Assembly (NCBI GenBank): GCA_015493635.1
Contig: WGCU01000034.1
Span: forward strand, 1-64,000
Origin: Spirochaetaceae bacterium
GTDB lineage: Bacteria > Spirochaetota > Spirochaetia > B11-G9
Direction: 5' to 3'
DNA: 64,000 nucleotides
The notes below the pieces were generated by a model, which worked only from the letters and a program-made list of their open reading frames with translations, was not told the origin of the DNA and made no database searches. Positions 19,727 to 28,540 of this stretch are shown piece after piece. Position 1 is the first letter of the stretch. Every line of letters starts with the position of its first letter. The position numbers were made by a program, and so were the translations under genes.

Positions 19727-20680
19727 CTACTTCTCCCCCCTCATATACGGTACCGCAAGAGCGGCGGGCGCCCCTACCTTTTTATTCAAGGTCTCAACCC
19801 ATGTCATAAGGACAAGAACAATAATGGTAACAAGATACGGGAGCATATTAAGCAGCGGTGCTGAAATGGTTGTCCCCGTTGCCTGCAGTCTGAACTGTAT
19901 GGCATTGATCCCGCCGAAAAGAAGTGCTCCCCAAATTGCCCGGGAAGGATTCCACATGGAAAAAATAACAAGAGCAATAACAATCCATCCGCGTCCTCCC
20001 GTGATATTATCTGTCCAGCCCGGAGCATAGGAGAGTGAAAGATGTGCACCTCCCAAAGCCACCAGTGTACCACCGAGAATGGTGTATATGTATCTCGTTT
20101 TAGCAATATTGATTCCCATAGCATCCGCTGTCTGAGGACTTTCCCCTACGGCTCGGAGGTTCAAACCGTTCTTTGTCTTGTACATGTAGAACCATGCAAC
20201 TGGTATAATGAGAAAGACGATATACGTAAGAATATCCTGACTGAAAACAGCTCCCAGGACAGGTATTTTTGAAAGCCCGGGGATATCAAAGGGGGTAAAT
20301 TTCTTTCCAACAAGACCAATCAGATAATGTCCGTTACTGGCAGGTCCCAGACGCTGTCCGAGGAAACTGGCAAATCCGGAGCCAAAGAGGGTAATACTTA
20401 AACCACTTACAACCTGGTTGGCCCGCATGGTAATAGAAAGAAAGGCATGGAGCGCAGAAAGAATCATTCCGGTAAGAGCCGCTACCAGGAGTGCGAGAAG
20501 CAGGCTCCCCGTATAGTAAACAGTCGCGAAAGCACTAACCGCTCCAAGAAGCATCATCCCCTCAAGTCCAAGATTAAGAATTCCTGAACGTTCCGTATAA
20601 ATCTCTCCGATGGTGGCATAGATAAGAGAAGTACCGGCCCGGAGTGTGATGGCTAAGATCGATGTTATAAGGGCTATCAT
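19727..20680 (-). CDS. Nucleoside ABC transporter permease 2 (NupQ/YufQ type)
   Basis: A 317-residue permease of the BPD_transp_2 family with about nine hydrophobic segments. Characteristic strings: ATIGEIYTERSGILNLGLEGMML, GMILSALHAFLSITMRANQVVSGL, FYMYKTKNGLNLRAVGE and ADAMGINI. Overlaps the other permease by four bases. Together with the ATPase and BMP lipoprotein it forms a purine-nucleoside importer by analogy with Bacillus NupNOPQ and the Treponema PnrABCDE system. Confidence 0.9.
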   Translation of the reverse strand: MIALITSILAITLRAGTSLIYATIGEIYTERSGILNLGLEGMMLLGAVSAFATVYYTGSLLLALLVAALTGMILSALHAFLSITMRANQVVSGLSITLFGSGFASFLGQRLGPASNGHYLIGLVGKKFTPFDIPGLSKIPVLGAVFSQDILTYIVFLIIPVAWFYMYKTKNGLNLRAVGESPQTADAMGINIAKTRYIYTILGGTLVALGGAHLSLSYAPGWTDNITGGRGWIVIALVIFSMWNPSRAIWGALLFGGINAIQFRLQATGTTISAPLLNMLPYLVTIIVLVLMTWVETLNKKVGAPAALAVPYMRGEK

Positions 20681-21759
20681 ACCGCAGCCTCCCGTGATCT
20701 TGATTTTGTAATAAACTTAAGTCTGTAATCGGTAAAAAGTGAACCCGCAAGCATGGGAAACAGGATCATACCTTCAAGAACAATTCCCATGGCTGATGGA
20801 AGACCCATCATCATCTGTACCTGATCTCCGCCGACAAGAAGTCCTGCCATAAGAACGGCAACAAACAGACTCGCAATGGGATTCAGCTGTGCCATCCATG
20901 CAACAATAATGGCCGTATACCCGTACCCAAGGGAGAGTCCCTGCTGAAGGCGGTGAGAAATCGCCGTTACCTCAAAGGATCCTGCCAGACCGGAAAAAGC
21001 ACCGGAAATAAGAATCGCGGTTATAATGCTTTTCCCGATTTTTACACCCATAACACGGGCAGCCCGCGGATTTTGTCCCACCATCTTTATTTCAAAACCC
21101 CAACGGGTCCGGTTGAGAACAAGCCACATTATAACACCGAGAATAAGGGCAATAAAAAGTCCGATATGTGCTCTCCCGGAAAATCTGGGAAGCCAAGCAG
21201 CTTTTGGAAAGAGCTTCGTTCCAGGGAATCCCATCCCTTTTGGATCTATCCATGCACCGTAATACAACCCCTGGGCAAGAAGAATGGCAACGTAGTTAAG
21301 CATTAAACTGACAAGAGTTTCATCCACCTTCAGCCCCACTTTTAAAACCGCAGGAATGCCGGCCCATAAACCGCCTGCCAGGCTTCCCATTACAAGAGCT
21401 GTAGGCAGAACAAGCCATGACGGTAAAAAAGGAGACCAAAAAAGTGCAACCCACGTAGCCGCAACCCCGCCGAATACCAACTGGCCTTCAGCTCCAATAT
21501 TCCAGAAACGAAGTTTAAATGCCAGTCCCACCCCTACACCGGTTAACATGAGAGGAATGGCTTTTACAAGCGTTTCGGTAAAATTGGTCCATGATCCGAA
21601 AGCTCCTATAAACATACTCGAATAGGTAGTAAAAGGATTTGTTTTAAAAATTATCAGCAATATCCCGGTCAAAATCAAAGAAACAAGAAACGAAACAGTC
21701 GGAACCAGCAGTATTGCTTTGCGTGACACTGAATTTCTTTTTTCAAAAACTATATGCAT
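20677..21759 (-). CDS. Nucleoside ABC transporter permease 1 (NupP/YufP type)
   Basis: A 360-residue permease. Start set at ATG 21759, which has AGGAGAG three bases upstream; the longer frame to 21798 begins without a ribosome site. Family strings: KAIPLMLTGVGVGLAFKLRFWNIGAEGQL, GLWAGIPAVLKVGLKVDETLVSLMLNYVA in part, and VGQNPRAARVMGVKI. Pairs with the second permease. Confidence 0.9.
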   Translation of the reverse strand: MHIVFEKRNSVSRKAILLVPTVSFLVSLILTGILLIIFKTNPFTTYSSMFIGAFGSWTNFTETLVKAIPLMLTGVGVGLAFKLRFWNIGAEGQLVFGGVAATWVALFWSPFLPSWLVLPTALVMGSLAGGLWAGIPAVLKVGLKVDETLVSLMLNYVAILLAQGLYYGAWIDPKGMGFPGTKLFPKAAWLPRFSGRAHIGLFIALILGVIMWLVLNRTRWGFEIKMVGQNPRAARVMGVKIGKSIITAILISGAFSGLAGSFEVTAISHRLQQGLSLGYGYTAIIVAWMAQLNPIASLFVAVLMAGLLVGGDQVQMMMGLPSAMGIVLEGMILFPMLAGSLFTDYRLKFITKSRSREAAV

Positions 21760-21772
21760 ATTCTCTCCTGGG

Positions 21773-23311
21773 TTATGTGAGTTCTTCCTGCGGTACACCG
21801 GCCATCATGAGTCCGAGGCTTTCTATATCAGCCTTGTCCGCCGGAACAATCCCCATTATTCTTCCTTCATTCATAACAGCAATGCGGTCTGATACAGACA
21901 TCAACTCATCAAGATCCTCAGAAACAAGGAGAACACCTTTACCGTTATCCCGCTCGGAAATCATCTCCTTGCGGACAGATTCAGTGGCTCCGACATCAAG
22001 CCCCCTGGCGGGGTATGCTGCAACAAGAAGACTTGCACAGGCGCCGATTTCCCTGGCAAGGATTGTTTTCTGAATATTTCCGCCGGACAGGAACTTGACG
22101 TTGGTATAGGGGGTAGGTGTTGCAATCTGGAAAAAGGTTATCATTTTTTTTGCCATTGCAAGAATCCGTTTTGGATGAAGAATACCATATTCCGTCAATG
22201 GAGCCTTACGATATTCTTTCATGGCAAGGTTATGAGCAACACTCATATCTCCTACAATCCCCATGGCAACTCTGTCGGATGGAATATGACTGACCCCTTC
22301 GTTAATAAACTCAAGAGGATCCTTATTGGTCATGTCCTTATCCTCAACAAGTATTTTCCCTTCTGTAACCTTATGAAGACCGGTAATGACCTCCGTTAAT
22401 TCCCGCTGCCCATTTCCCGCGACCCCCGCAATTCCGAGGATTTCTCCTCTGCGTAGATTCAGAGAAATGTTCTGCAATGCTTTTATTCCTTTCTCATTGA
22501 GAGCAGTTACATTTTCCAGTTTAAGTACGGTTTCACCCGGTTGGGCAGGTTTTTTCTCTACACGGAAAAGGACTTCCCGTCCTACCATCATTTTAGACAA
22601 CTCCCGGGGACTCGTATCCTTGGTACGCACAACACTGACAAGTTTTCCTTTCTGAAGAACACGGACCCAGTCCGAAAACTCCATTACCTCATCCATCTTG
22701 TGTGTAATAAAGATTGCTGATTTCCCTTCACCGGTCATCTGTTTTATAATCTGATTCAACTCTCTGGATTCCTGGGGTGTCAGTACTGCGGTCGGTTCAT
22801 CAAGAATAAGTACTTCAGCTCCCCGGTATATGAGTTTTAAAATTTCTACCCGCTGCTGTTCTCCGACACTCATTTGCCAGATAACCGCATTCGGATCCAC
22901 CTTTAAATTATAGTGGGACGAAATATCCTTGATTTTATTACCAACTTTTTTAAGATCCAGGATAAAATCCTCATTTTCAAGACCGAGAATAACATTCTCC
23001 GCTACCGTCATGGTTTGCACGAGTTTGAAATTCTGATGGATCATACCGATACCATGCTTCATAGCATCTTTGGGAGAATATATTTCTATCTCCTCCCCTT
23101 TCATGCGAATTGTTCCGCTGTCCGCACGATAGAGTCCGGCAAGAACATTCATAAGAGTACTTTTTCCTGCCCCGTTCTCACCGAGGAGGGCAAGAACTTC
23201 ACCGGGGAAAAGCTCGAGATCAACATTGTCATTTGCCAGAACACCGGGGAAACGCTTTGTTATACCCCTCATTTCCAGAATGGGAGTTTTCTCTTTCTGA
23301 TCATTTTTCAT
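21773..23311 (-). CDS. Nucleoside ABC transporter ATPase, two ABC domains (NupO/YufO type)
   Basis: A 512-residue double ATPase. Domain 1: Walker A LLGENGAGKSTLMNVLAG (about residue 41), signature MSVGEQQRVEILK, Walker B VLILDEPTAVLTPQE, switch FITHKM. Domain 2: a modified Walker A GVAGNGQRELTEV (Lys lost), signature FLSGGNIQKTILAREI. One strong and one degenerate site is the norm for RbsA/NupO proteins. Located between the receptor and permease genes; a stable hairpin separates it from the receptor gene. Confidence 0.92.
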   Translation of the reverse strand: MKNDQKEKTPILEMRGITKRFPGVLANDNVDLELFPGEVLALLGENGAGKSTLMNVLAGLYRADSGTIRMKGEEIEIYSPKDAMKHGIGMIHQNFKLVQTMTVAENVILGLENEDFILDLKKVGNKIKDISSHYNLKVDPNAVIWQMSVGEQQRVEILKLIYRGAEVLILDEPTAVLTPQESRELNQIIKQMTGEGKSAIFITHKMDEVMEFSDWVRVLQKGKLVSVVRTKDTSPRELSKMMVGREVLFRVEKKPAQPGETVLKLENVTALNEKGIKALQNISLNLRRGEILGIAGVAGNGQRELTEVITGLHKVTEGKILVEDKDMTNKDPLEFINEGVSHIPSDRVAMGIVGDMSVAHNLAMKEYRKAPLTEYGILHPKRILAMAKKMITFFQIATPTPYTNVKFLSGGNIQKTILAREIGACASLLVAAYPARGLDVGATESVRKEMISERDNGKGVLLVSEDLDELMSVSDRIAVMNEGRIMGIVPADKADIESLGLMMAGVPQEELT

Positions 23312-23355
23312 GGTTTGTAAACCCTATTTCAACTGTTTCGCATACTACACTGATA

Positions 23356-23377
23356 AGCCCGGCCGGAAAGCCGGGCT
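23356..23377. terminator. GC-rich intercistronic hairpin between receptor and ATPase genes
   Basis: AGCCCGGC (23356-23363) pairs perfectly with GCCGGGCT (23370-23377) around a six-base loop. On the transcribed minus strand only TTATCAG follows, so this is at best a partial terminator. It may also stabilise the upstream receptor mRNA 3' end, giving more receptor than transporter. Confidence 0.55.
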
Positions 23378-23396
23378 CTTTTAACAGAAAAGATTT

Positions 23397-24521
23397 TTAT
23401 TTACTGATGGTACCGACAACACCCTGAACAAGAAAATTCATGCCAAGCATGTCACCGTCAGACATCTTTGCTCCGTCTGCTACAATAACCTTACCATCCT
23501 GACCTTTCACCGGTCCCCAGAAAACATCCCAGGAGCCGTCTACAATTTTTTTCTTCTCCGCCGCAACAAGATCCCGGACACTCTGAGGTACTTTATCACT
23601 GAAAGATGACAGCATAACAACACCGTCTTTTAAGCCGCCCCAGTAAGAGTGTTTTTTCCAGGTACCGTCAAGCGCGTTCTGGACTGTCTTTACAAAATAA
23701 GATCCCCAGTGCCATTTCGGACTTACCAAAACAGAATCTCCGACGAACTTACCCATATCAGAATCGTAACCGATACTTACCAGTCCCCTCTCTTTTGCCG
23801 CTTTCTGCGGTTCTGTTGTATCCTGATGCTGAGCAATAAGCTTCACACCGGAATCGAGAAGCGCAACTGCAGCCTCACGTTCTTTAACCGGATCGTACCA
23901 TGTGTTTGTCCAGACAACTTTTACCTTTGCAGTGGGATTTACTTTCCTTACACCGATGGTAAAAGCGTTTATTCCACGGACAACTTCAGGAATCGGGAAC
24001 GCTGCAACGTATCCTATACTTGCACCTTTGGGAATTGCTTTCCCAGCAACGATACCGGAAAGATACCGGGCCTGATACATACGTCCGAAATATGTTGACA
24101 TGTTGTCAGATGTTTTATATCCGGAACAGTGTTCAAAGTAAACATTGGGAAACTCTGACGCAACTTCAACCATGGGATCCATATAGCCGAACGAAGTAGC
24201 AAAAATCATGTTGTACCCCTTCTGTGCGTACTGGCGGATTATCCGCGACGCATCGGGTCCTTCAGGAACGTTTTCGACAAAGGTTGTTTCAACTTTGTCA
24301 CCAAGTTTTTCATCAATCATCTTTCTTCCCTGATCCTGTTCATATGTCCAGCCGAGATCACCGGGAAGACCAATGTAGATGAACGCAACTTTAAACTTTT
24401 TCGCCGGGGTAGAAACTTCAGCAGCTTTTGCCGGGGTTTCCTTCTTTTTACAACTTGTAAGCGAAAACCCAATTCCAAACAGTAGCATTACCGATAACAG
24501 CATTATCAATGCTTTCTTCAT
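23397..24521 (-). CDS. BMP-family nucleoside-binding lipoprotein (PnrA/TmpC-like)
   Basis: Substrate receptor of the ABC importer. Start at ATG 24521 with AAGGAG six bases upstream. Signal MKKALIMLLSVMLLFGIGFS and lipobox LTSC anchor it at residue about 24. The mature part has the Bmp/PnrA fold strings KVAFIYIGLPGDLGWTYEQDQGRKM, GYNMIFATSFGYMD, SGIVAGKAI and AQHQDTTEPQKAAKERG. The WTYEQDQGR variant resembles BMP proteins linked to purine or other base uptake. First gene of the operon. Confidence 0.92.
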   Translation of the reverse strand: MKKALIMLLSVMLLFGIGFSLTSCKKKETPAKAAEVSTPAKKFKVAFIYIGLPGDLGWTYEQDQGRKMIDEKLGDKVETTFVENVPEGPDASRIIRQYAQKGYNMIFATSFGYMDPMVEVASEFPNVYFEHCSGYKTSDNMSTYFGRMYQARYLSGIVAGKAIPKGASIGYVAAFPIPEVVRGINAFTIGVRKVNPTAKVKVVWTNTWYDPVKEREAAVALLDSGVKLIAQHQDTTEPQKAAKERGLVSIGYDSDMGKFVGDSVLVSPKWHWGSYFVKTVQNALDGTWKKHSYWGGLKDGVVMLSSFSDKVPQSVRDLVAAEKKKIVDGSWDVFWGPVKGQDGKVIVADGAKMSDGDMLGMNFLVQGVVGTISK

Positions 24522-24549
24522 AGACAACTCCTTAATTTAGATTGTTTCC

Positions 24550-24664: not shown

Positions 24665-25936
24665 TCATGTAGTAAACAATGCTTTCATATCAGGTTTAAT
24701 TGAAGTCACAGAGCTTTCTTTTGAAAGCATTTTCTGCAGTGATTTGGGAACCGGAACACTTTTTCCTATTTCCGGTTCTACGATCGATTCAAATTTTGCA
24801 GGATGGGCAGTTGAGACAACGATGGTATCGATATCAGAAAAAAATCGTTCCCTGACAAACTGTCCCGCTGCTGTATGAGGACAGAGGATGTAGTTAAATA
24901 ATTTGAATGTACTCCGAATCTCCTCCCTGATTTCTTTATCAGATACACTGAAAGCGGAAACATTCCTTTTTAGGGTGGTAAAATCTTTAAAAAGATACAT
25001 AATCCGTTCCATATTACTGGGATCACCAACATCCATCGCATTGGCAACAGTCTGAATGCTCTTCCCCGGTATATACTTACCAGTTTCAAGGTAATGAGGA
25101 ATCGTTTTATTCGCGTTTACAGCTAGTACTATTTTCTTTAAGGGAGCACCGCATTCCCGTGCCCAGTATGCTCCAACCGAATTACCGACATTTCCGCTTG
25201 GAATGATAAAAACAGGATATCTGCCTTTCTGCCTGTAATACTCCTGAGCGGCATAAACATAGTAAACCATCTGAGGGAGAAGCCTTCCCAAATTTATGCT
25301 GTTTGCTGAAGAAAGATGCCATTTGGTTTTTAATGCTTCGTCTTGAAAGGCGTCTTTTACCAGTTTCTGGCAATCATCAAAACTGCCCTCAACAGAATAG
25401 GATTGTATATTCGTATCCCAGCAGGTAAGCTGTTTTTCCTGCCGTAACGAAACTCTCCCTTTCGGGAAGAGGACCTTTACTCTGATTCCTTTCTTTTTGT
25501 AAAACGCCGATGCTACCGCGCTGCCGGTATCACCTGATGTTGCTACAAGAATGGTAAGGAGCTGCCTGCTTTTTTCCTGGATACTTTCGAGAGCGGAGGC
25601 AAGAAAGCGGGCTCCGAAATCCTTAAAAGCAGCTGTCGGGCCGTAAAATAGTTCCAGAATCCCTTTTTTGTCATCAAGCATACGGAGCGGTACATCGAAG
25701 GTAAACGCTTTCTCACAGATTTCAGGGATCCTGTCAAAAAGGGGATCACCTTTAAAAAAAGGCTGAATGATCTTCGCTGCAAAGAGAGGATACGGCAGAC
25801 CTTTATCCAGAAAATCCATTGGAATTTCTGGAAATCTCTCTGGAACATACAATCCGCCGTCTGGAGCAAGTCCATTTACTATCGCCTCTGAAGCGGTAAC
25901 AGCGGGGCTTTTCCCCCGGGTACTGATAAATTTCAT
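24665..25936 (-). CDS. thrC: Threonine synthase
   Basis: PLP enzyme converting phosphohomoserine to threonine. Start at ATG 25936 (MKFISTRG), with GGAGGGAG upstream; the longer frame to 26122 would run into thrA. Motifs: ISTRGKSPAVTASEAIVNGLAPDGGLYVPE, the PLP lysine in GPTAAFKDFGARFLA (about residue 108) and LVATSGDTGSAVASAF. 423 residues. It lies 22 bases downstream of thrA. Confidence 0.95.
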   Translation of the reverse strand: MKFISTRGKSPAVTASEAIVNGLAPDGGLYVPERFPEIPMDFLDKGLPYPLFAAKIIQPFFKGDPLFDRIPEICEKAFTFDVPLRMLDDKKGILELFYGPTAAFKDFGARFLASALESIQEKSRQLLTILVATSGDTGSAVASAFYKKKGIRVKVLFPKGRVSLRQEKQLTCWDTNIQSYSVEGSFDDCQKLVKDAFQDEALKTKWHLSSANSINLGRLLPQMVYYVYAAQEYYRQKGRYPVFIIPSGNVGNSVGAYWARECGAPLKKIVLAVNANKTIPHYLETGKYIPGKSIQTVANAMDVGDPSNMERIMYLFKDFTTLKRNVSAFSVSDKEIREEIRSTFKLFNYILCPHTAAGQFVRERFFSDIDTIVVSTAHPAKFESIVEPEIGKSVPVPKSLQKMLSKESSVTSIKPDMKALFTT

Positions 25937-25958: not shown

Positions 25959-28433
25959 TTAAAGTCTTGCTCCCAAATAAGAAGCCAAACGTAAAAGATC
26001 CGCAAAAATTCCACCAGCAGTAACATCGGGGCCTGCTCCCGGCCCGCGTACGACAAGAGGCTGTGTATTGTACCGTTCTGTAGTAAACGCGACGATATTG
26101 TCACTCCCCGATATTCCCGCAAAGGGATGATCAGAGGGATAACTTTTCAACTGCACACTACAGCTTCCATCTTCCTCAATAATTCCGGTATACTTTATAA
26201 CTTCATTTCTCTCTACCGCTTCCCTGTAAAGTTTATCCATCTCCTCATCCATAATACTGAGATGTTGCATAAAATTTTCAACAGATACATCCCTCAGCTC
26301 CCCAGGAACAAGACTCTTTACAGGGACATCCTCCACTTCAACCGCATACCCTATTTCCCGGGCCAGGATAACGGTCTTACGGACTATATCCATACCGGAC
26401 AGATCATCCCTGGGATCCGGTTCAGTGAAACCAAGATCTTTTGCCTCGCCTACCAGTTCACTGAAAGGTTTCGTACCGTCAAATTTCCAGAAAAGGTACG
26501 CGAGGGTTCCGGAAAAAACACCTTCAATTCTTTTTATCTTGTCCCCCGTAAGAATGAGATCACGAAGCGTTCCAATTATGGGAAGCCCCGCTCCAACCGT
26601 CGTTTCATAGAGAAAATGAATACCCCGTTTCCTCGATTCGGAAAAGAGCTTTCTATACTCCTCCATGGCGGTTGTCCCGGCTTTTTTGTTAGGAGTAATA
26701 ATATGAATACCCCTCCGGATCCACTCAAGATACTTTCCGGGAATATCCTGGGAAGTTGTGCAGTCAATAATTACTTTATGGGGAATATACTCCGCGTCAA
26801 TGTGATTGATAAACTTTTCAAGATCCGCTTCTTCTGATGAAGACTCAAGACTACTCCGCCATTGTGTAATATCGAGAGAAGGATCAGAAAGAATCATCTT
26901 CTTTGACCGGGTAATTCCCCGCACCCGAAGATCAATACCGAAATTTTCATGCAGATATTCTGATTCCCCTGCTATCTGGTCAAGAAGTGTACTGCCGATA
27001 AGACCTGGCCCAATAACACCGATGCTCAATGTCTGATTGGACAGGTAAAACCCTGAATGTACGGCCCGCAGGGCCCGGGTCGAATCTTCTTTTCTGATAA
27101 CCGCGCTGATATTGCGCTCAGAAGATCCCTGGGCGATAGCACGCACATTTACTCCAGCCTGACCGAGCGCACCAAAGAACTTAGCTGAAATACCGGGTGT
27201 TCCTGACATTTTGTCCCCCACCGCCCCGAGTATTGCACAATCCGATTCTATCTCGATGGTATGAATTCTAAAGCTCTCCAGTTCTTCACGAAACGTCTTC
27301 CGGGCAACATCTTTTGCTTCCTCGGCCTGGGCGGAAGGGATAGCACAGCATATGGAATGTTCACTGGATGCCTGACTGATAAGAATGACTGATATGCCCT
27401 TTTTATACAAAGCGGAAAATAATCTCGAAGAGATTCCGGGGACCCCCACCATTCCGGCACCTTCCACATTAAGAAGGGAAATGGTATCCACTATGGAAAA
27501 ACCTTTTACCGGGTGTACCTGCGATCCAGACTCCTCCGCTTTTATAACAGTACCGGGCTTATCGGGATAATTGATATTTTTAATATAAACAGGAATCCGC
27601 TTTACAATTGCAGGAGGCAGTGCTTCAGGATGGAGTGTTTTTGCACCGAAATGGGCCAGCTCAGTTGCTTCTTCGTAGGTAAGTTCTGGAATAACAACAG
27701 CACCGGGAACTTTTTCAGGATCAGCACTCATAATACCATCACTGTAGGACCAGAAGACAATACGCTGCGAATCAAAGAGATTGCCGTAAAGAGAAGCTGC
27801 AAATTCAGCTCCATGTTCCCCGAGGTATATAGATTCCCCGTCCGTATCAGATCCTCTGCTTCCTGTCGCTATAAGAATCTGAATATCTTTTTTTACAGAC
27901 AGAAATGCATCAAGCTTATTCCCGGAGATATCCCAATCCATAGGCAGTCCCATCCCTCCGGCAGAAAAGGTAAGAATGTCACGGGAATCAACCCAGGCTG
28001 CCTTCATATCCAACGACTGAAGCCGGGCATTCAACAGCTCAGCGGTCCATATACTTCCTATGCCAAAGATATGTTCCCGGGTAACCTCTGAACAGTGACG
28101 TACCAGCCAGACCCCTTTTAATATCTCCTCCATCTCGATGAAATAGTTTCTAACCGAGTTTTCCAGTTCTTTCCGCAGGGTCTTTGAAGATACCCCTGCA
28201 ATAAATTCATGTTGAGTACTGCTCATCTCCTCCAATTTTGACCATAACACCTCATCCTGTGCAACGGCGAAAGAAATAAGCCTTTCAATATCCTTTTTTC
28301 CCTCATTACTCTGGGTAAGAACTACAACAAGTGATTTCCAGTCTCCCTGCCTGATTACCTCCACCATTGCATCCAGTCCGGCTCTGGAATAATAGAGAGA
28401 ATCATCAAACTTAAAAATATCAGGTCTGTTCAT
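25959..28433 (-). CDS. thrA: ThrA-like aspartokinase/homoserine dehydrogenase with degenerate kinase domain
   Basis: An 824-residue fusion. Residues 1 to about 290 align with aspartokinase, 300-455 with two ACT domains (VEGAGMVGVPGISSRLFSAL; VGDKMSGTPGISAKFFGALG), and 465-824 with homoserine dehydrogenase. The dehydrogenase half keeps the Rossmann motif IGVIGPGLIGSTLL, the lysine of TPNKKAGTT and the EPDPRDDLSGMDIVRK active site. The kinase half does not: KFGGTS is KFDDSL, GE-x-x-S is GSIWT, GRxGSDYSA is GEHGAEFAA and WTDVDG is WSYSDG. Loss of these residues predicts no aspartokinase activity, while ACT-based allostery may remain. An active LysC elsewhere would be required. Confidence 0.92.
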   Translation of the reverse strand: MNRPDIFKFDDSLYYSRAGLDAMVEVIRQGDWKSLVVVLTQSNEGKKDIERLISFAVAQDEVLWSKLEEMSSTQHEFIAGVSSKTLRKELENSVRNYFIEMEEILKGVWLVRHCSEVTREHIFGIGSIWTAELLNARLQSLDMKAAWVDSRDILTFSAGGMGLPMDWDISGNKLDAFLSVKKDIQILIATGSRGSDTDGESIYLGEHGAEFAASLYGNLFDSQRIVFWSYSDGIMSADPEKVPGAVVIPELTYEEATELAHFGAKTLHPEALPPAIVKRIPVYIKNINYPDKPGTVIKAEESGSQVHPVKGFSIVDTISLLNVEGAGMVGVPGISSRLFSALYKKGISVILISQASSEHSICCAIPSAQAEEAKDVARKTFREELESFRIHTIEIESDCAILGAVGDKMSGTPGISAKFFGALGQAGVNVRAIAQGSSERNISAVIRKEDSTRALRAVHSGFYLSNQTLSIGVIGPGLIGSTLLDQIAGESEYLHENFGIDLRVRGITRSKKMILSDPSLDITQWRSSLESSSEEADLEKFINHIDAEYIPHKVIIDCTTSQDIPGKYLEWIRRGIHIITPNKKAGTTAMEEYRKLFSESRKRGIHFLYETTVGAGLPIIGTLRDLILTGDKIKRIEGVFSGTLAYLFWKFDGTKPFSELVGEAKDLGFTEPDPRDDLSGMDIVRKTVILAREIGYAVEVEDVPVKSLVPGELRDVSVENFMQHLSIMDEEMDKLYREAVERNEVIKYTGIIEEDGSCSVQLKSYPSDHPFAGISGSDNIVAFTTERYNTQPLVVRGPGAGPDVTAGGIFADLLRLASYLGARL

Positions 28434-28451
28434 TAGCTACCGCCTCTGCAT

Positions 28452-28493
28452 AAAAAAAACCCGAACACCACTCATATGAGTACGTTCAGGTTT
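28452..28493 (-). terminator. Attenuator or terminator hairpin ahead of thrA
   Basis: On the minus strand CCTGAAC pairs with GTTCGGG around the inner palindrome ACTCATATGAGT, followed directly by eight T residues (28452-28459). This is a strong intrinsic terminator. It lies between rpmB and thrA, only 19 bases before the thrA ATG, with a promoter upstream of it and no promoter after it. thrA expression therefore requires read-through, as in attenuation. Confidence 0.75.
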
Positions 28494-28510: not shown

Positions 28511-28540
28511 ATTATAAAAACGTTTAAGAAACTTTTACAA
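28511..28540 (-). promoter_or_regulatory. Candidate thrAC promoter at the end of rpmB
   Basis: Minus strand TTGTAA at 28535-28540 (inside the last rpmB codons), 18 bases, TATAAT at 28511-28516, directly upstream of the attenuator-like hairpin. Confidence 0.5.

Follow-up and report, generated by a model that had tools for sequence, protein, structure and literature searches.

Sequence evidence for a pseudo-aspartokinase half in the ThrA homologue of a spirochaete clade

ThrA proteins unite an aspartokinase (AK) half, two ACT regulatory domains and a homoserine dehydrogenase (HSD) half in one polypeptide. The thrA homologue examined here lies in a stretch of 64,000 nucleotides from contig WGCU01000034.1 of a Spirochaetaceae bacterium (hereafter the window), and its AK half departs from the family at nearly every motif of the kinase site. 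It therefore raises two questions, namely whether this half can still be a kinase and, if not, why it is kept. The answer reached below is that the AK half is, with strong support, a pseudokinase, that its kinase site was lost once in an old spirochaete clade, and that the dead half is probably retained as a scaffold and relay for the control of the fused dehydrogenase by threonine.

The gene, its product and the kinase site

The thrA frame starts with ATG and has no internal stop in its 824 codons (Table 1). Its product matches the NCBIfam model of ThrA (NF006959) over residues 7–820 with 902.9 bits (cut-off 726), a full-length family match that bears out the alignment along the whole protein on which the original prediction rested. 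Three further members of the clade described below score 802–967 bits, two of them being aligned only from about residue 185 onward. In the window protein, Pfam recognizes an incomplete AA_kinase domain (residues 118–286, profile positions 73–234), the ACT domains, with ACT_9 among the models detected, and both HSD domains. The absence of stop codons had been taken as a sign of selection; the frame is indeed open, but this is a weak argument by itself, and what counts are the dN/dS values and the clade-wide retention reported below.

Table 1. Coordinates of the thrA and thrC features in the window (residue numbers refer to the thrA product)
Feature	Coordinates	Strand	Basis
thrA homologue, predicted pseudo-aspartokinase–ACT–homoserine dehydrogenase, 824 aa	25959..28433	−	ORF, NF006959, AlphaFold2
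Degenerate AK half, residues 1–303	27525..28433	−	23/42 ThrA-invariant positions lost; predicted fold complete
Paired ACT regulatory domains, residues 304–463	27045..27524	−	27/28 invariant positions kept; Q354 and Q435
Intact HSD half, residues 464–824	25962..27044	−	54/55 invariant positions kept
thrC, threonine synthase	24665..25936	−	ORF, start at the ATG of MKFISTRGKSP

The start of thrC lies 22 nt past the thrA stop, and the order thrA–thrC is also found in three other genomes of the clade (L069, L072 and L071). ABC transporter genes and a gene for a lipoprotein-like binding protein (19727–24527, − strand) adjoin thrC; in Sediminispirochaeta smaragdinae (L070) the same transporter genes adjoin thrA and thrC is not adjacent. 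Directly upstream of thrA is an rpmB-like gene for ribosomal protein L28 (28524–28754, − strand), too small for the list of 90-aa open reading frames. A promoter-like pair, TTGTAA and TATAAT separated by 18 nt, is seen at 28511–28540 (− strand) ahead of thrA. After it comes a hairpin resembling a terminator (28450–28490, − strand), whose T run ends ∼18 nt before the thrA ATG and which may be either the rpmB terminator or a thrA attenuator. No Rfam match to a riboswitch or T-box was obtained ahead of thrA or of the separate lysC discussed below.

To analyse the kinase site, an alignment was made that comprised, next to the window protein, the E. coli enzymes ThrA, MetL and LysC, a large number of working ThrAs and stand-alone LysCs from the same organisms. 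Every motif change listed in the original prediction was found there, together with the retained lysine of the first motif: KFGGTS has become KFDDSL with Lys8 in place, GE-x-x-S has become GS-x-x-T (E127 replaced by S127), GRNGSDYSA has become GEHGAEFAA (R204E, S207A and D208E in E. coli ThrA numbering) and WTDVDG has become WSYSDG (T227S, D228Y and V229S). Further replacements are A39 by Q, T44 by K, F190 by S and R238 by E. In LysC numbering, working enzymes are near-invariant at K8, G10–G11, A40, T45, E119, F184, R198, S201, D202 and D222, and the window protein retains K8 alone of these; catalytic and substrate-binding residues, with E119, R198, S201, D202, D222 and V223 among them, are all changed. 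In LysC, the substrate aspartate is held by salt bridges with E119 and R198 and is contacted by A40, T45, F184 and S201 (PMC5481828). Besides Lys8, the window protein keeps K265 (E. coli K263), but this residue has no diagnostic value, given that E. coli MetL works with Pro at that position.

The same site is lost in related proteins. Nearly all members of the clade have lost A40, E119, F184, R198, D202, D222 and V223 (LysC numbering), which the examined ThrAs and LysCs that work all possess; K8 itself is gone in two of the three families concerned and is kept in that of the window. Catalytic residues at shifted positions, a finding that would have spoken against a pseudokinase, do not appear in the alignment: the RGSD at residues 194–197 sits ∼12 residues ahead of the aligned motif and is not conserved in a sister protein (73% identical), where it reads RGVD. 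Chance, a sequencing error or a compensating pair of frameshifts is likewise excluded, because 35 aligned sequences have the same losses.

Spread of the degenerate state and its single origin

The distribution of the altered kinase site was followed across 393 sampled genomes of the phylum. In the order of the window, all eight genomes have a degenerate ThrA, the other seven proteins being 59–73% identical to that of the window. The degenerate state also occurs in the family of S. smaragdinae (f19; two genomes) and in a third family (f12), with 28 genomes encoding a near full-length protein and 2 a shortened one. One protein of this third family is identical to the ThrA of the metagenome-assembled genome HGW-Spirochaetae-4 (L158), and we take some of its members to fit Sphaerochaeta-type genomes. 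Four further families of the phylum (f3, f4, f8 and f13) were represented by ThrAs whose AK site is essentially intact. In one of these proteins (L058, genome G378, family f13), the kinase site is partly altered, with the motifs KFGGSV and WSAR, and may represent an early loss that arose independently.

A search of genome contigs with an alignment as query gave at least 80 relatives from many phyla (a search with the single protein as query gave none); among the matches listed, the AK site is intact in 79/80, and the exception, L158, falls inside the clade. In a tree computed from the ACT and HSD columns, with the AK half left out, all degenerate copies form one clade (SH-aLRT 100) and a single change of state explains the loss of the kinase, so that multiple independent losses need not be assumed. 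On this phylogeny, the kinase appears to have been lost once, in a single old spirochaete clade, and the degenerate ThrA is a property of a large group and not the oddity of a single gene. The two shortened proteins (L055 and L056, from genomes G325 and G333 of a reduced-genome genus) have 715–720 aa, with ∼190 residues ahead of the ACT region; they have also lost the second ACT glutamine motif and look like a next step of decay.

What the genomes keep alongside the dead half

If the AK half is dead, aspartyl phosphate has to come from elsewhere, and a stand-alone lysC, the search for which had been proposed at the outset, is present in the window's own genome; of 42 genomes, 41 have one (in four as contig-end or partial pieces; absent in G276). 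Catalytic positions are intact in those stand-alone LysCs that were aligned. The LysC of the own genome (L003 967–2265, − strand) belongs to the PRK09034 type, and its ACT region is so divergent that it stays under the Pfam cut-off. Full-length LysCs of the clade are PRK09034-like, with 388–460 bits, compared with at most 265 bits for the LysCs of relatives that have a working ThrA. A separate aspartokinase is found in 35/37 genomes with a working ThrA, so that loss of the ThrA kinase probably took place against an existing redundancy. Loss of the site across a monophyletic clade, together with a separate LysC whose site is intact, gives the predicted pseudokinase strong support, and the window ThrA is predicted to be a monofunctional HSD.

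The dehydrogenase is not backed up in this way, since ThrA is the sole HSD in 18 of the 20 genomes checked. A second HSD was searched for in the window's own genome and none was found, which removes the idea that its ThrA is dispensable. In the two exceptions ThrA appears to have been replaced: G311 (L199, L067) has a hom–lysC–asd cluster and keeps a ThrA-like protein degenerate in both halves, and G234 (L198) has a monofunctional HSD beside lysC, with ThrA missing. As to other steps, no homoserine kinase scores above the TIGR00191 cut-off in the own genome (G000), where three weak matches reach at most 27 bits, and the ThrB step may be carried out by another family. A further gene, L007 1357–2757 (+ strand), encodes 466 aa in which an acetyltransferase-like region comes after an amino-acid-kinase domain; the product is probably an N-acetylglutamate synthase of the ArgA type.

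The claim that the ACT domains and the HSD are well kept could be quantified. Invariant positions were defined as those conserved in ≥95% of 67 working ThrAs and were compared with 35 degenerate ones; 23/42 are lost in the AK half, 1/28 in the ACT domains and 0/55 in the HSD, so that loss is confined to the AK half (23/42 versus 1/83; Fisher p ∼1e-12) and the claim is upheld. All 35 degenerate ThrAs have Q354 and Q435, which we take to be the threonine sites by homology with the plant and enterobacterial enzymes; their spacing of 81 residues is that of the threonine sites Gln443 and Gln524 of Arabidopsis AK-HSD. As judged from these residues and from the accompanying motifs SSE and GSSE, the ACT threonine sites are present in the window ThrA. 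The HSD catalytic residues K583, E610, D682 and K686 are likewise found in 35/35, and the window protein has the HSD motifs TPNKKA and TEPDPRDDLSGMD.

Evolutionary rates tell the same halves apart. On a fixed tree, the clade has a ratio of AK to HSD change of 2.9, and its stem one of 3.6, versus 1.15 in working ThrAs; relative to the HSD, the dead half thus evolves ∼2.5 times faster than its working counterpart. The corresponding ACT to HSD ratio is 1.0 versus 0.87. For four unsaturated pairs (L037/L039, L017/L018, L011/L015 and L012/L016), the dN/dS of the dead half is 0.06–0.20, ∼1.7–4 times the HSD value, which indicates relaxed but real purifying selection, although such low values could stem from folding alone, not allostery. 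Retained AK residues concentrate at positions 240–303, beside the ACT domains (13/17 versus 6/25 elsewhere, p 0.001), and the ACT-adjacent helix of the AK half is 100% conserved. They include E258, the equivalent of E250 in LysC, where the E250K mutation relieves feedback inhibition by lysine (PMC5481828). New invariants specific to the clade are E61, L63, W64, E68 and E210 in the 35 degenerate ThrAs, E210 being the Asp-to-Glu change of the third motif, fixed in 35/35.

AlphaFold2 predicts for the window ThrA (pLDDT 90.9, pTM 0.81) a complete amino-acid-kinase fold in the AK half. The best PDB matches of the model are the threonine-sensitive aspartokinase of Methanocaldococcus jannaschii (TM 0.83–0.90) and yeast HSD; similarity reaches 0.90 with the threonine-bound form (3c1n) and is 0.83 with the active form (3c1m), whereas E. 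coli LysC gives the opposite trend, so that the difference carries no weight here. The AK half shows the combination that defines a pseudoenzyme, namely lost catalytic residues with the fold, as predicted, and purifying selection retained.

Possible roles of the dead half and their meaning

The reading judged probable is that this thrA encodes an HSD whose pseudo-aspartokinase half supports the protein as a scaffold and relays its control by threonine. The kinase site being gone, the separate LysC would make aspartyl phosphate; the dead half would still fold, help to keep oligomer and ACT domains in position, and pass on the threonine signal by which the fused dehydrogenase is inhibited. In that case, threonine acting on this protein would govern the HSD step at the branch point alone and leave the pathway's first step untouched. 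According to classical work, HSD fragments obtained from the E. coli enzyme by proteolysis are no longer under threonine control, and this fits such a role, with which the conservation pattern is also consistent. The ∼190 residues left in G325 and G333 indicate that some genomes can do without the complete half.

Alternatively, the old cleft or surface could have been repurposed, after the kinase had been lost in an ancestral spirochaete, as a sensor for a new ligand or partner, much as the amino-acid-kinase fold of N-acetylglutamate synthase senses arginine. The clade-specific invariants, with E210 fixed and not drifting, speak for this option, but most other old cleft positions differ between families and the fixed positions may also be interface or packing residues; this option is considered rather unlikely. 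Less likely still is a passive relic: the AK half would have no role beyond its attachment to a dehydrogenase that the cell needs, and would be on a slow way to disappearance. Its fast evolution, its shortening in G325 and G333 and the doubly degenerate copy of G311, next to a separate hom–lysC–asd cluster, agree with decay; against it stand the near full-length AK half in 38 genomes of three families, the low dN/dS with new clade-wide invariants, and the fact that decay of the whole protein is seen only where a second HSD exists. It is quite improbable that the dead half binds LysC and confers threonine sensitivity on it, like a silent second subunit: all tested genomes of the clade with a full-length LysC have the PRK09034-like type, but such co-occurrence may be mere shared descent and the genes lie apart in the own genome (C34 versus C12). 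Finally, that the AK half retains kinase activity through an unusual active site is scarcely credible, since, despite the Lys8 and fold kept in the window's family and a conservative Asp-to-Glu change, the aspartate-holding Glu119 and Arg198 and also Asp222 are gone, two families lack Lys8 and an intact LysC exists.

Compared with known systems, the protein shares with ThrA (NF006959/PRK09436) the AK–ACT–ACT–HSD order, the threonine-site glutamines, the HSD catalytic residues and the neighbouring thrC, and differs by missing AK substrate-binding and catalytic residues. MetL (aspartokinase II–homoserine dehydrogenase II) is also a ThrA paralogue minus one feature and forms its mirror image, with the kinase site kept and the ACT threonine sites lost. 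N-acetylglutamate synthase (ArgA/NAGS) has an amino-acid-kinase fold without kinase activity that is regulatory and fused to another enzyme, but it senses arginine in the kinase-fold domain and has a GNAT domain, whereas in the present protein the ACT domains are the expected sensors. Monofunctional Hom, with its C-terminal ACT domain, has HSD activity controlled by threonine, as predicted here from sequence, but is devoid of the N-terminal kinase half and places its regulatory domain in a different order. The Pyrococcus-type pair of aspartokinase paralogues (TIGR02078), one possibly regulatory, consists of separate subunits without a fused dehydrogenase, and the window protein scores 59.5 bits, below the cut-off of 242.4. 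The parts are known, as is the theme of dead enzyme domains kept for regulation (NAGS belongs to the same fold family); the open literature searched yielded neither a pseudo-aspartokinase in the ThrA of a whole clade nor any other described aspartokinase pseudokinase.

The curated NCBI model still names these proteins ‘bifunctional’ and, as an ‘equivalog’, credits the clade with an aspartokinase activity that its ThrA very likely does not have. Metabolic models of bacteria related to Sphaerochaeta and Sediminispirochaeta are affected by this assignment. If the repurposed sensor were true, the sole HSD of these organisms would gain a second regulatory input besides threonine. For the family at large, the clade offers a natural experiment on the ThrA fusion: the chemistry of one half was lost and the half itself was retained clade-wide, which suggests that its regulatory role is separable from the catalytic one.
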